Shown: positions 8,337 to 23,035 of the stretch, piece after piece | How the letters are laid out: each line of letters starts with the position of its first letter | Position numbering within the stretch: the stretch's first letter is position 1 | Source of the DNA: a virus | DNA length: 27,908 bases | Virus record (IMG/VR): IMGVR_UViG_3300032294_002106 | Location: 1-27,908 of that record | Direction: 5' to 3' (one strand) | Program-made: the position numbers and the translations under genes | The notes under the pieces: generated by a model | The model's database searches: none | What the model saw: the letters and a program-made list of their open reading frames with translations, nothing else | Told to the model about the DNA's origin: nothing

Positions 8337-8414
8337 GGGGCGGTAGCTCAGCTGGTCAGAGCAGCAGACTCATAATCTGTCAGGTCGTGGGTTCGAGCCC
8401 CACCCGCCCCACCA
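8337..8414 (+). tRNA. tRNA with CAT anticodon (Met, possibly Ile2)
   Basis: A full cloverleaf: acceptor GGGGCGG (8337-8343) pairs with CCGCCCC (8404-8410), a TAGCTCAGCTGG D arm, anticodon stem GCAGA/TCTGT with loop CTCATAA (anticodon CAT at 8371-8373), and the T arm GGGTTCGAGCCCC. An encoded CCA follows the discriminator A (8411-8414). A CAT anticodon reads AUG, or AUA if the C is modified to lysidine; identity cannot be decided by eye. Confidence 0.9.
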
Positions 8415-8437: not shown

Positions 8438-8466
8438 TTGACCTAGCCCTAGGGACTCTGTATTAT
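8438..8466 (+). promoter_or_regulatory. strong promoter for the 8471-8574 RNA
   Basis: TTGACC (8438-8443), a 17-bp spacer and TATTAT (8461-8466). The expected start, six to eight bases downstream, falls at or within two bases of the first base of a long RNA stem. Confidence 0.8.
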
Positions 8467-8470
8467 TGAG

Positions 8471-8574
8471 GTGTGGGCGGAGGTAAGCGACCCGTCACGC
8501 GGACTGTGAATCCGAGCGGAGTTCCGTGGGAGTCGGAACCGCGTTGTGACATCGACTCGCTCCTCCGCCCACAC
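8471..8574 (+). ncRNA. putative structured RNA of about 104 nt
   Basis: The ends pair over 13 bp without mismatch (GTGTGGGCGGAGG at 8471-8483 with CCTCCGCCCACAC at 8562-8574). After a two-base bulge the stem continues with AGCGA/TCGCT. Further in, GTCACGCG (8494-8501) pairs with CGCG plus TGAC (8540-8550) around a TTG bulge, and a perfect six-bp hairpin GTTCCG/CGGAAC closes on a seven-base loop (8521-8539). Alternatively the middle forms D-arm-like and anticodon-arm-like hairpins (loop CTGTGAA), but no T arm is present. It could be a regulatory RNA, a degenerate tRNA-like element or the leader of the next gene, 35 bases on. Confidence 0.65.
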
Positions 8575-8608: not shown

Positions 8609-9112
8609 ATGGGTCTTGATATGTATCTGAAGTACCGCAAGTCTTTTCACGGATACGAGCACACCTCAGACTCCGATGAGAAAGAGAAGTACCACAACAT
8701 CATCGAGGCAGCAGGCCTCGACGGCATGGTGACTAGCGACAGCCCCTTCGTTGAGGTTGAGACGACTGTCATCTACTGGCGCAAGGCCAACGCCATCCAC
8801 GGCTGGTTCGTGAATGAGTGCGGCGGCGGTGTAGATGAGTGCCAGTCCATCCCGGTTACGCGGGAGCAGTTGGTGAAACTTCGTGAACTTTGCTTCGAAG
8901 CCCTGAGCATCCCGGCGGGGTCATCGTTGCAAGACCACGCGCCAACGGTGCTGCCGCCGACACCCGGCTTCTTCTTCGGTTCCTACGATGTTGACGAGTG
9001 GTACGTCTCTGACTTGGAGCGAACGATGAGAGAAATCGACCGACTTCTCCCCCTCCTCCCCGTTGACGGCGAGGGCTGGGACTGGGGACTCGTCTATCAG
9101 GCTTCTTGGTAG
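8609..9112 (+). CDS. phage protein of the MGLDMYL-type family
   Basis: 167 residues. I start at the ATG at 8609 because an AAGGACGGGG stretch precedes it and the protein then begins MGLDMYLKYRK, a start shared by a family of uncharacterised proteins in many phages and bacteria. A Trp/His/Asn region (VIYWRKANAIHGWFVNE, about 52-68) is also typical, as is the C-terminal YDVDEWYVSDLERT. No catalytic motif is evident. It is the first gene after the structured RNA and so may be controlled by it. Confidence 0.7.
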   Translation: MGLDMYLKYRKSFHGYEHTSDSDEKEKYHNIIEAAGLDGMVTSDSPFVEVETTVIYWRKANAIHGWFVNECGGGVDECQSIPVTREQLVKLRELCFEALSIPAGSSLQDHAPTVLPPTPGFFFGSYDVDEWYVSDLERTMREIDRLLPLLPVDGEGWDWGLVYQASW

Positions 9113-11789: not shown

Positions 11790-12839
11790 ATGCTTACAGA
11801 AAGGTACGCCAATATCGGCTCTCCGACAGGGCCGACGACGTTCTGGCAGAAGGTTGTCGAAGTTGCAGCGCAGAAGGATGTTGAGGACTCTGCGATCAGA
11901 CTGAGCGCAGTTGTTCTGCCGCAAGGTCGCTACGTCGCACGGGCATCGGGACCGCGCAGGCCGCGTGGGTCGAAGCCCGTAGTAGCAACTACTACCACGG
12001 TGGAGAGCATGGAAGCCGAAGAGGTCTACGTCCGTCCCAATGGGCAGGACTACCACGCTCGCACTTGGGGAGAGCATGGCGATGTTGCGGCTCTCCGCAA
12101 GGCACGCGAGGTCACGGCTCAGGCTTTCAGCGAGGGCAAGGGCTCTCCGATGTTCTCTCTGCTCTACGGCGCTCCCGGTTGCGGAAAGACCGCGCTGGTG
12201 GAGGCCGCGTTCGGTGAGAGCCTGTTCACCATCCTTGGCACGGGTGACACGGAGGTCGCAGATATGATCGGCGGCTACGTCCAGACTCCCTCTGGCGGCT
12301 TTGAGTGGGTCGATGGTGACCTCATTCGCGCTGCGGAGTCAGGAGGCGTCTACTTCATTGACGAGATCGGTCTGATCGACCCGAAGGTGTTGTCCATCGT
12401 CTACGGTCTGATGGATGGTCGTCGTGAGATCACAGTCACCGCCAACCCTGAGCGCGGCACGGTCAAGGCGCACCCTGAGTTCTACGTCGTGGCTGCTACT
12501 AACCCTAACGCTCCCGGTGTTCGACTCAGCGAGGCTCTGCTGTCGCGCTTCACCGTGCAGGTGGAAATGACGACAGATTGGAACCTTGCGCGGAAGTTGG
12601 GTGTCAGCACCACGATGGTCACCGCCGCGCAGAATCTCGCCAAGAAGCAGCAGTCTCACGAAGTTTCGTGGGCACCGCAGATGCGCGAGTTGCTCGCCTT
12701 CCGCGACATTAGCGACACGTTCGGCACGGAGTTCGCTCTCTCCAACTTGCTCGCCGCCGCTCCCGAAATGGACCGTCCTGTAGTAGCAGACGTTCTCACA
12801 AGGGCGTTCGGCGCTGAGTGCAAGCCTGCCAAGATTTAG
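11790..12839 (+). CDS. MoxR-type AAA+ ATPase
   Basis: 349 residues, ATG preceded by AGGAGG. After an N-terminal region of about 110 residues comes a AAA_5/MoxR-like core: Walker A GAPGCGKT (127-134), Walker B VYFIDE (187-192, catalytic Glu192), sensor ATNPN (236-240) and an Arg in LLSRF as a likely finger. MoxR proteins are ATP-driven chaperones that usually work with a VWA-domain partner to insert cofactors or activate other complexes; such a partner is encoded next door. Two motif copies lie in frame in VVA codons and one in the ATN codons. Confidence 0.9.
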   Translation: MLTERYANIGSPTGPTTFWQKVVEVAAQKDVEDSAIRLSAVVLPQGRYVARASGPRRPRGSKPVVATTTTVESMEAEEVYVRPNGQDYHARTWGEHGDVAALRKAREVTAQAFSEGKGSPMFSLLYGAPGCGKTALVEAAFGESLFTILGTGDTEVADMIGGYVQTPSGGFEWVDGDLIRAAESGGVYFIDEIGLIDPKVLSIVYGLMDGRREITVTANPERGTVKAHPEFYVVAATNPNAPGVRLSEALLSRFTVQVEMTTDWNLARKLGVSTTMVTAAQNLAKKQQSHEVSWAPQMRELLAFRDISDTFGTEFALSNLLAAAPEMDRPVVADVLTRAFGAECKPAKI

Positions 12840-22205: not shown

Positions 22206-22469
22206 ATGTCCTCCGAGGTAGAGATCGTACAGAGCGCGTTTCATGTGAACGGTCGCGCTGCGCCGTTCTACGCGGCGATTGTGGATGATCCACAGTCCGG
22301 CGATACAAAGCTAGTCATCATGTTCGATGAGCCCGACTACACAGCAGTCCTGTCTCTGGACGCTTTGCTAGACGTTGAGGATGTCTCGCCAGAACTACAC
22401 AGATCGCGCGGTGATCTATTCGATGATGCCCTCCGGGATGCGCTCTGGTATCCGGAGGAAGAGGGCTAA
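22206..22469 (+). CDS. unknown 87-residue acidic protein
   Basis: I choose the ATG at 22206 because the coding pattern begins there (MSSEVEIVQSAFHVNGRAAP); codons at 22161 and 22179 would include the motif. The protein is acidic with strands (FYAAIVDDPQSGDTKLVIMF) and a helical end. It overlaps the start of the Ntn hydrolase gene by one base (TAATG), so it may be its functional partner. No family recognised. Confidence 0.55.
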   Translation: MSSEVEIVQSAFHVNGRAAPFYAAIVDDPQSGDTKLVIMFDEPDYTAVLSLDALLDVEDVSPELHRSRGDLFDDALRDALWYPEEEG

Positions 22470-23035
22470 TGTCTACGGTAGCCGCTATCCAAGGTTCCAC
22501 ATGGTCAGTCGTGGCATATGACTCTCAGGTAACCGAGGACGGCGGTAGGTCCTACACACTTCCCCGAGGCATGGAGAAGGTGTGCCAGAACAAAGGTTAC
22601 GTCCTAGGAGTAGCAGGAGACTTCCGCGCCGTAAATATTGTGACGCATGTGTTCGATCCTCCGAGCCCCCCGATCAAGCGCGGACATGACTTAGACGTAT
22701 TCATGTCTGCCAAGTTTGTCCCATCTTTGCGCGGTTGCTTTGAGAAGAGTTTCTACGCGAAAGATGGAGAGCAGGGATCGCTACTAATCGTCGTGGTGAA
22801 TGGAGTGATCTACGAGATTGGTGGGAACTACGATTGCCTGCGAGATGAGGCTGGACTCTACGCGATTGGCAGCGGGTCATCTTTCGCACTGGGATCACTC
22901 TTAGAGAGCGAGTCTGAGAAGCGAACTCTAAAGAATGCGAAAGAGCGAGCCGAGAGCGCTCTGCACATCGCCTGCACGCTGGACTCAGGTACTTCAGAAC
23001 CTATTAGAATATTGGTGCAGCATTGGACACCGTAG
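22469..23035 (+). CDS. Ntn hydrolase, proteasome-beta/HslV-like
   Basis: 188 residues. The start MSTVAAIQGSTWSVVAYDSQVTED fits an N-terminal-nucleophile hydrolase of the proteasome beta/HslV fold (shown as MSTVAAIQG, then WSVVAYDSQVTED): after Met removal Ser2 (or Thr3) would be the nucleophile, Asp18 matches the conserved Asp17, Lys37 in MEKV matches Lys33, and GYVLGVAGD and YAIGSGSSFALGSL match later conserved turns. The length is typical. HslV-like proteins need an unfoldase; the nearest AAA+ gene is the MoxR at 11790. A protease, or a non-proteolytic relative, is equally possible. Confidence 0.75.
   Translation: MSTVAAIQGSTWSVVAYDSQVTEDGGRSYTLPRGMEKVCQNKGYVLGVAGDFRAVNIVTHVFDPPSPPIKRGHDLDVFMSAKFVPSLRGCFEKSFYAKDGEQGSLLIVVVNGVIYEIGGNYDCLRDEAGLYAIGSGSSFALGSLLESESEKRTLKNAKERAESALHIACTLDSGTSEPIRILVQHWTP

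Follow-up and report, generated by a model that had tools for sequence, protein, structure and literature searches.

The window analysed here, a 27.9-kb IMG/VR virus record, contains a strongly folded sequence at a predicted promoter between a tRNA gene and a phage gene, which raises the question of what kind of RNA may be encoded at this locus and whether other viruses carry it. A preliminary description of the DNA had proposed a promoter of ideal spacing, a highly folded RNA of approximately 104 nt with a 13-bp terminal stem at the predicted start, and a position between a tRNA and a phage gene, and each of these proposals was borne out. The sigma-70-type promoter TTGACC-17-TATTAT (bp 8438-8466, + strand) has 10 of 12 consensus bases; its pattern occurs nowhere else in the window, where 0.05 matches would be expected by chance. 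The complete RNA (bp 8471-8574, + strand), identified by fold z-score and covariance model, has a minimum free energy (MFE) of -56.6 kcal/mol compared with -39.1 ± 3.3 kcal/mol for shuffled sequences (z = -5.2), and none of 200 shuffles folded as well. Its terminal stem (bp 8471-8483 paired with bp 8562-8574) begins 4 nt past the -10 hexamer, so that bp 8471 lies within 1-3 nt of the transcription start expected from the predicted promoter, and no T run follows the stem.

Upstream of the promoter is a tRNA-Met (CAT) gene (bp 8337-8414, + strand), found with ARAGORN and Rfam, which together report two ordinary tRNAs in the window and nothing else. The next gene (bp 8609-9112, + strand, ATG at bp 8609) encodes a 167 aa protein that begins MGLDMYL and has a weak match to phrog_7971. 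The predicted model of this MGLD protein is confident (pLDDT 91), its fold has no match in the PDB, and its relatives are all distant (≤44% identity). PADLOC returned no match for eight window proteins. The window has no close named relative, as megablast matches to phages cover only a few dozen bases of tRNA.

Identification of related loci

The AAA ATPase gene at bp 11790-12836 of the window retrieves contigs at 78-81%. When the RNA was compared with these contigs using BLAST, an unexpected pattern was observed: the more distant relatives L131, L139 and L143 match the middle of the RNA (bp 8499-8542) at 93% identity, but the nearest relatives lack it. The latter (the L082 group and L086) carry a shorter hairpin, linked to a promoter and located ahead of the MGLD gene, that shares the outer part of the window RNA. 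We refer to the outer part as module X and to the inner part as module Y. A search pattern (GCGACC ... CGACTCGC) built from window-type and nearest-relative copies found further copies of X among the collected loci, and X pattern scans of IMG/VR (23 stretches, with no stem demanded) and of one genome per bacterial species yielded more. A long outer stem is present in 21 of the 23 IMG/VR stretches (19 by inspection and two by a model score >40 bits), while stems of ≥5 bp were demanded of training members from bacterial genomes. The covariance model R1, trained on 14 sequences with the window excluded, finds bp 8472-8573 of the window with a score of 50.9 bits (E-value: 1.6e-7). Because the core is fixed in the search patterns and rewarded by the model, its true variation is under-sampled.

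BLASTN of the RNA and of the X consensus against named phages gave no match, a result that cannot exclude X in these phages because the conserved words are too short. No convincing X was found with the X model in nine whole named actinophages that encode DUF932; the weak matches in Zemanar (23.6 bits) and CaiB (E-value: 0.47) both lack the core. Nor was a match obtained when the inner part was searched for as an exact pattern, with the linker fixed and GGAGUUCC included, because the linker and bulge differ in relatives.

Architecture and covariation of module X

X consists of a long stem (P1), a core with the strands YANGCGACC and CGACUCGCU, and a variable arm (P2). In the window, where all of these elements are on the + strand, the P1 strands (bp 8471-8483 and 8562-8574, 13 bp, assigned from fold and covariation) enclose the 5' core strand UAA-GCGACC (bp 8484-8492; YAN-GCGACC in the family) and the 3' core strand CGACUCGC-U (bp 8553-8561, invariant in 26/26), and the P2 strands GUCAC (bp 8494-8498, shared with L131) and GUGAC (bp 8546-8550) pair with each other. 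A.GCGACC and CGACUCGCU are invariant in all 26 X sequences, an invariance partly built into the search patterns, and the asymmetric internal loop has the same offset of three versus one nucleotides in 26/26 copies. The length of X is about 46-109 nt, with P2 ranging from a 3-5-nt loop to large inserts. Two copies (L240:8093-8179 and L241:4846-4954) carry other large P2 inserts that are unlike Y in sequence.

The preliminary description had named the lack of compensatory changes in relatives as a result that would count against it. Such changes are seen in all 12 modelled P1 pairs among 26 distinct sequences, and the P1 covariation score of these 26 sequences is 0.620, compared with 0.167 when shuffled and ≤0.156 in slid controls. 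P1 pairs include 10 G.U but only 1 C.A mismatch, and it is therefore likely that X is an RNA read from this strand and not a DNA-only palindrome. Based on these results, X is almost certainly a real, conserved RNA family, and the earlier suggestion of a regulatory RNA holds when taken broadly, as a structured RNA with a function, given this covariation and the recurrence of X in unrelated phages. The tRNA-like D arm that had been described is unsupported, because the bases assigned to it (GUAAGCGACC) belong to the invariant core of the outer module.

With 4227 Rfam families, only tRNA matches were obtained and none for X at gathering level; permissive searches of the window, L188 and L131 gave spurious microRNA matches, partial matches or none. 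Judged from these searches, X is a previously uncatalogued family that is absent from Rfam. By inspection, a short leader peptide from AUGCGACC was rejected (its frame is not conserved and the AUG is missing in the window), and K-turn and hammerhead readings of the core fit poorly by eye.

Distribution among actinobacterial viruses

X is present as a single copy in 21/21 genomes or records, three of which are whole genomes of actinobacteria (8-9.3 Mb). An even draw of the phylum contained X in two of 396 genomes (one being the seed genome), while in the family of G002 it was found in nine of 251, of which two are seeds and one is doubtful (G444, 40.3 bits, with an altered core). On the basis of shared genes, at least three groups of phages with X can be distinguished. 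Group A (the window, G007, G008, G009, G010, G011, G014 and G016) has in common the AAA ATPase and a 629-aa protein; group B (G012, G013, G017, G018, G019 and perhaps G021) has tRNA clusters in most members; and group C comprises actinobacterial prophage or element contexts (G002-G006 and others). Sequenced strains with X include Streptomyces sp. WAC 01529, Spongiactinospora and Sphaerisporangium. X is carried by several unrelated groups of actinobacterial viruses.

Genomic context of X

The settings of X vary, and include the 5' end of different mRNAs, the head of a tRNA-Asp operon, the vicinity of tRNA-Leu(UAA) and the space between convergent genes. Eight copies from lineages A and B (the window, L082, L086, L087, L165, L170, L241 and L249) are preceded by promoters with 10-12 of 12 consensus bases that end 1-19 nt before P1, placing X at the transcript start by position. 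This is not the case for L172, L197 and L221, nor for L129, L131 and L139, in which X follows a gene with no promoter ahead of it; in L131 and L139, a U-rich tail is found 3' of X. Several lineage A copies are predicted to lie at the extreme 5' end of an mRNA, with no terminator. A convergent HTH gene has its 3' end immediately after X in L221, and in Spongiactinospora the gene next to X is reversed in orientation and ends at X.

In group B, X precedes tRNA-Asp in the same orientation at the head of the tRNA-Asp operon, and in the Streptomyces element it lies about 5 nt before tRNA-Leu(UAA). A tRNA adjoins X in the window, L165, L170, L240, L241, L249, L167 and L175, but not in L129, L131 or L139. 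The MGLD gene is found near X in groups A and B. DUF932 (PF06067, TIGR03299) is encoded in 13 of 30 genomes with X, and in 13/13 of these a copy lies ≤2.3 kb from X; a rough estimate of the chance of this proximity, based on seven whole genomes and ignoring the common descent of the element, is 1e-22. As no DUF932 gene was detected in group A or among the Streptomyces elements, DUF932 is a neighbour of X and not a proven partner. Its structure model is of low confidence (pLDDT 46).

Module Y in the P2 arm of the window RNA

In the window, P2 (GUCAC/GUGAC) encloses both hairpins of Y, such that Y is nested in an arm of X. Hairpin 1 (CGGA-CUGUGAA-UCCG, bp 8500-8514, + strand) resembles an anticodon arm and is identical in L131, L139 and L143. 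The apparent GTG anticodon reported previously is indeed present: GUG occupies the anticodon position in the 7-nt loop CUGUGAA (bp 8504-8510). The supporting stem has 5 bp in L131 and L143, and 4 bp (CGGA/UCCG) plus a G.A mismatch in the window; all three have a 7-nt loop with U33. Hairpin 2 (GCGG-AG-UUCCG-UGGGAGU-CGGAA-CCGC, bp 8516-8542, + strand) has a 5-bp stem and a 7-nt loop that fits the T-loop pattern U-N-N-R-A-N-N. The UUCCGUGGGAGUCGGAA segment of hairpin 2 is invariant in the window, L131, L139/L143 and L249, although the flanking stem differs in L249. The L249 copy is thus the second X with the UUCCGUGGGAGUCGGAA hairpin inside P2, and its first hairpin is different (AUGGU-UCGUUGG-ACCAU). 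In 3.6 Mb of compared sequence, the exact UUCCGUGGGAGUCGGAA hairpin is limited to these copies.

The 93% identical Y core of L131, L139 and L143 is predicted to form an RNA of its own behind a TATAAT promoter. The P2 stem of the window recurs in L131, where it closes a small loop, while the Y of L131 sits elsewhere and is predicted to fold into a four-way junction with both hairpins in the MFE structure. For the window RNA, a structure that includes both hairpins lies 1.6 kcal/mol above the MFE, and its preference therefore rests on the relatives. Y is known from few sequences (both hairpins in four and hairpin 2 alone in a fifth) and is absent from other X copies. No double change was found within Y among three sequences, and in alignment A3 the window row has one inserted T to keep register. 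Sequence comparison identifies the window copy as a fusion of two modules, X and Y; Y may have been inserted into X, or the two may have parted in other lineages. Downstream of the separate Y, further structured-looking stretches are found in L131 (6540-6760) and L143 (6500-6740), and TGATATAATA promoters both separate and follow them; L131 6400-6760 matched no Rfam family.

Comparison with known phage and bacterial RNAs

Few structured phage RNAs are known beyond tRNAs. GOLLD and ROOL are structured non-coding RNAs of phages and prophages that are often located near tRNA genes or clusters and have no known function; GOLLD, often >800 nt in length, has one conserved and one less conserved part (PMC12286853). 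X is similarly phage-encoded and near tRNA genes in many copies, but it is far smaller and has another core, and the GOLLD and ROOL models (assumed to be included in the 4227 families) did not match it. We found nothing matching X in the open literature on phage structured RNAs of this kind.

The closest RNA in plan is YrlA (RF02553), in which a stem with a conserved protein-binding motif is joined to a tRNA-like part, two modules as in the window RNA. The RF02553 model has no match at bp 8471-8574 or any X position at E-values up to 10. In three actinobacterial genomes with X, candidates for RF02553 adjoin TROVE (Ro60) genes; none scores over the cut-off, and their core is unlike that of X. 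No TROVE gene was found in 19 virus records, and those on the three host chromosomes are away from X. With neither an RF02553 model match nor a Ro60 partner gene, membership of X in the Y RNAs was rejected.

Possible roles of X

We consider it about evenly balanced whether X is a trans-acting scaffold whose arm can be exchanged, a mechanism proposed from sequence comparison. X would then be a small stable phage RNA, in which P1 and the invariant core are the probable binding site or scaffold for a putative host or phage protein and P2 would be an exchangeable effector arm; the arm of the window virus bears Y, possibly as an imitation of part of a tRNA. The P1 covariation, the recovery of the window by R1, the single copy per genome, the varied contexts, the variable P2 and the existence of separate Y are all consistent with such a scaffold, while the presence of DUF932 near X in two lineages only argues against it, as does the 5' position of lineage A copies that lack a terminator, which also fits a cis-acting leader. 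More tentatively, X could be the scaffold of an uncharacterized class of phage ribonucleoprotein with one core to which different RNA effector arms can be fitted, Y being one of those that also occur as separate RNAs; this would reflect an exchange of RNA modules between phages. It is a doubtful alternative that X is a 5' leader acting in cis, one that stabilizes the phage transcript or changes RNA polymerase. The promoters just ahead of P1 in the eight A and B copies favour it, a single copy per genome would be enough to control one operon, and there is a precedent in HK022 put, a phage RNA reported to suppress, while still nascent, both pausing and termination in early transcription (PMC9378689). 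This likeness, which concerns transcript-start position and not the put sequence itself, makes put the closest cis-acting precedent, but X occurs once and is also found at 3' and convergent positions. Furthermore, the downstream genes differ, the copies in L129, L131 and L139 are promoterless and behind a gene (two with a U-rich tail), and the copy in L221 abuts a convergent gene end and therefore has nothing downstream to act on.

A role of the RNA, or of Y within it, as a tRNA mimic or decoy (for instance, one aimed at a host tRNA-cleaving or tRNA-modifying enzyme), suggested in part by the preliminary description, is improbable. The sizes of the Y hairpins, corresponding to anticodon and T arms, the U33-like and A37-like positions flanking GUG in hairpin 1, the T-loop pattern of hairpin 2 and the many X copies adjoining tRNA genes speak weakly for such a role. 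It is made less likely by the loop of the hairpin 1 counterpart in L249 (UCGUUGG), by the complete lack of Y in other X copies and by tRNA scoring, in which bp 8471-8574 fell below the RF00005 gathering cut-off, were unrecognized even at a permissive threshold and were not called by ARAGORN; compared with a tRNA, Y has neither D arm nor acceptor end and is nested in another RNA. That P1 is a mere processing or termination hairpin (an RNase III site, or a terminator separating transcripts) appears quite improbable: a long G+C-rich stem, the U-rich tails of L131 and L139 and the intercistronic or convergent placement in actinobacterial genomes would suit it, but such a hairpin has no need for an invariant asymmetric internal loop, it would not be expected once per genome, and the window stem starts at a promoter with no T run after it. 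The reading of X as a ligand-binding riboswitch, also raised previously as a riboswitch-like leader, is highly improbable. An invariant internal loop between covarying stems and the 5' leader position in lineage A are aptamer-like, but the reading fits poorly because downstream genes differ between lineages and some copies, such as that of Spongiactinospora, have no same-strand gene downstream; there is thus no conserved class of sense-oriented downstream gene, and no alternative expression platform is visible.

As a small, strongly covarying, single-copy RNA that is spread across unrelated actinophages and present in sequenced strains, X is directly testable. The nesting of one conserved RNA module in the variable arm of another provides a natural example of RNA modularity, and the X model should help annotators with a region left blank by gene finders.

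Other elements in X-bearing records

A tRNA-like element in L086 (5084-5166) and L087 (3248-3330) closely precedes the promoter that lies ahead of the MGLD gene. It has an anticodon loop (CUUAUAA), a T arm, an acceptor stem and a long variable region but hardly any D arm, and scores 34 bits with the Rfam tRNA model; ARAGORN does not call it. The most widely shared gene is that for an HslV/proteasome-like peptidase (window bp 22469-23035, phrog_1040), present in 11 of 18 X-bearing records. Between bp 9121 and 24514, both strands of the window carry >40 copies of TGCTACTA, many as GATTGCTACTAA and many in intergenic gaps. There are 37-39 copies of this repeat in the L082 group, 14 in L087 and none in L086, and it is probably a phage operator or start-associated repeat.
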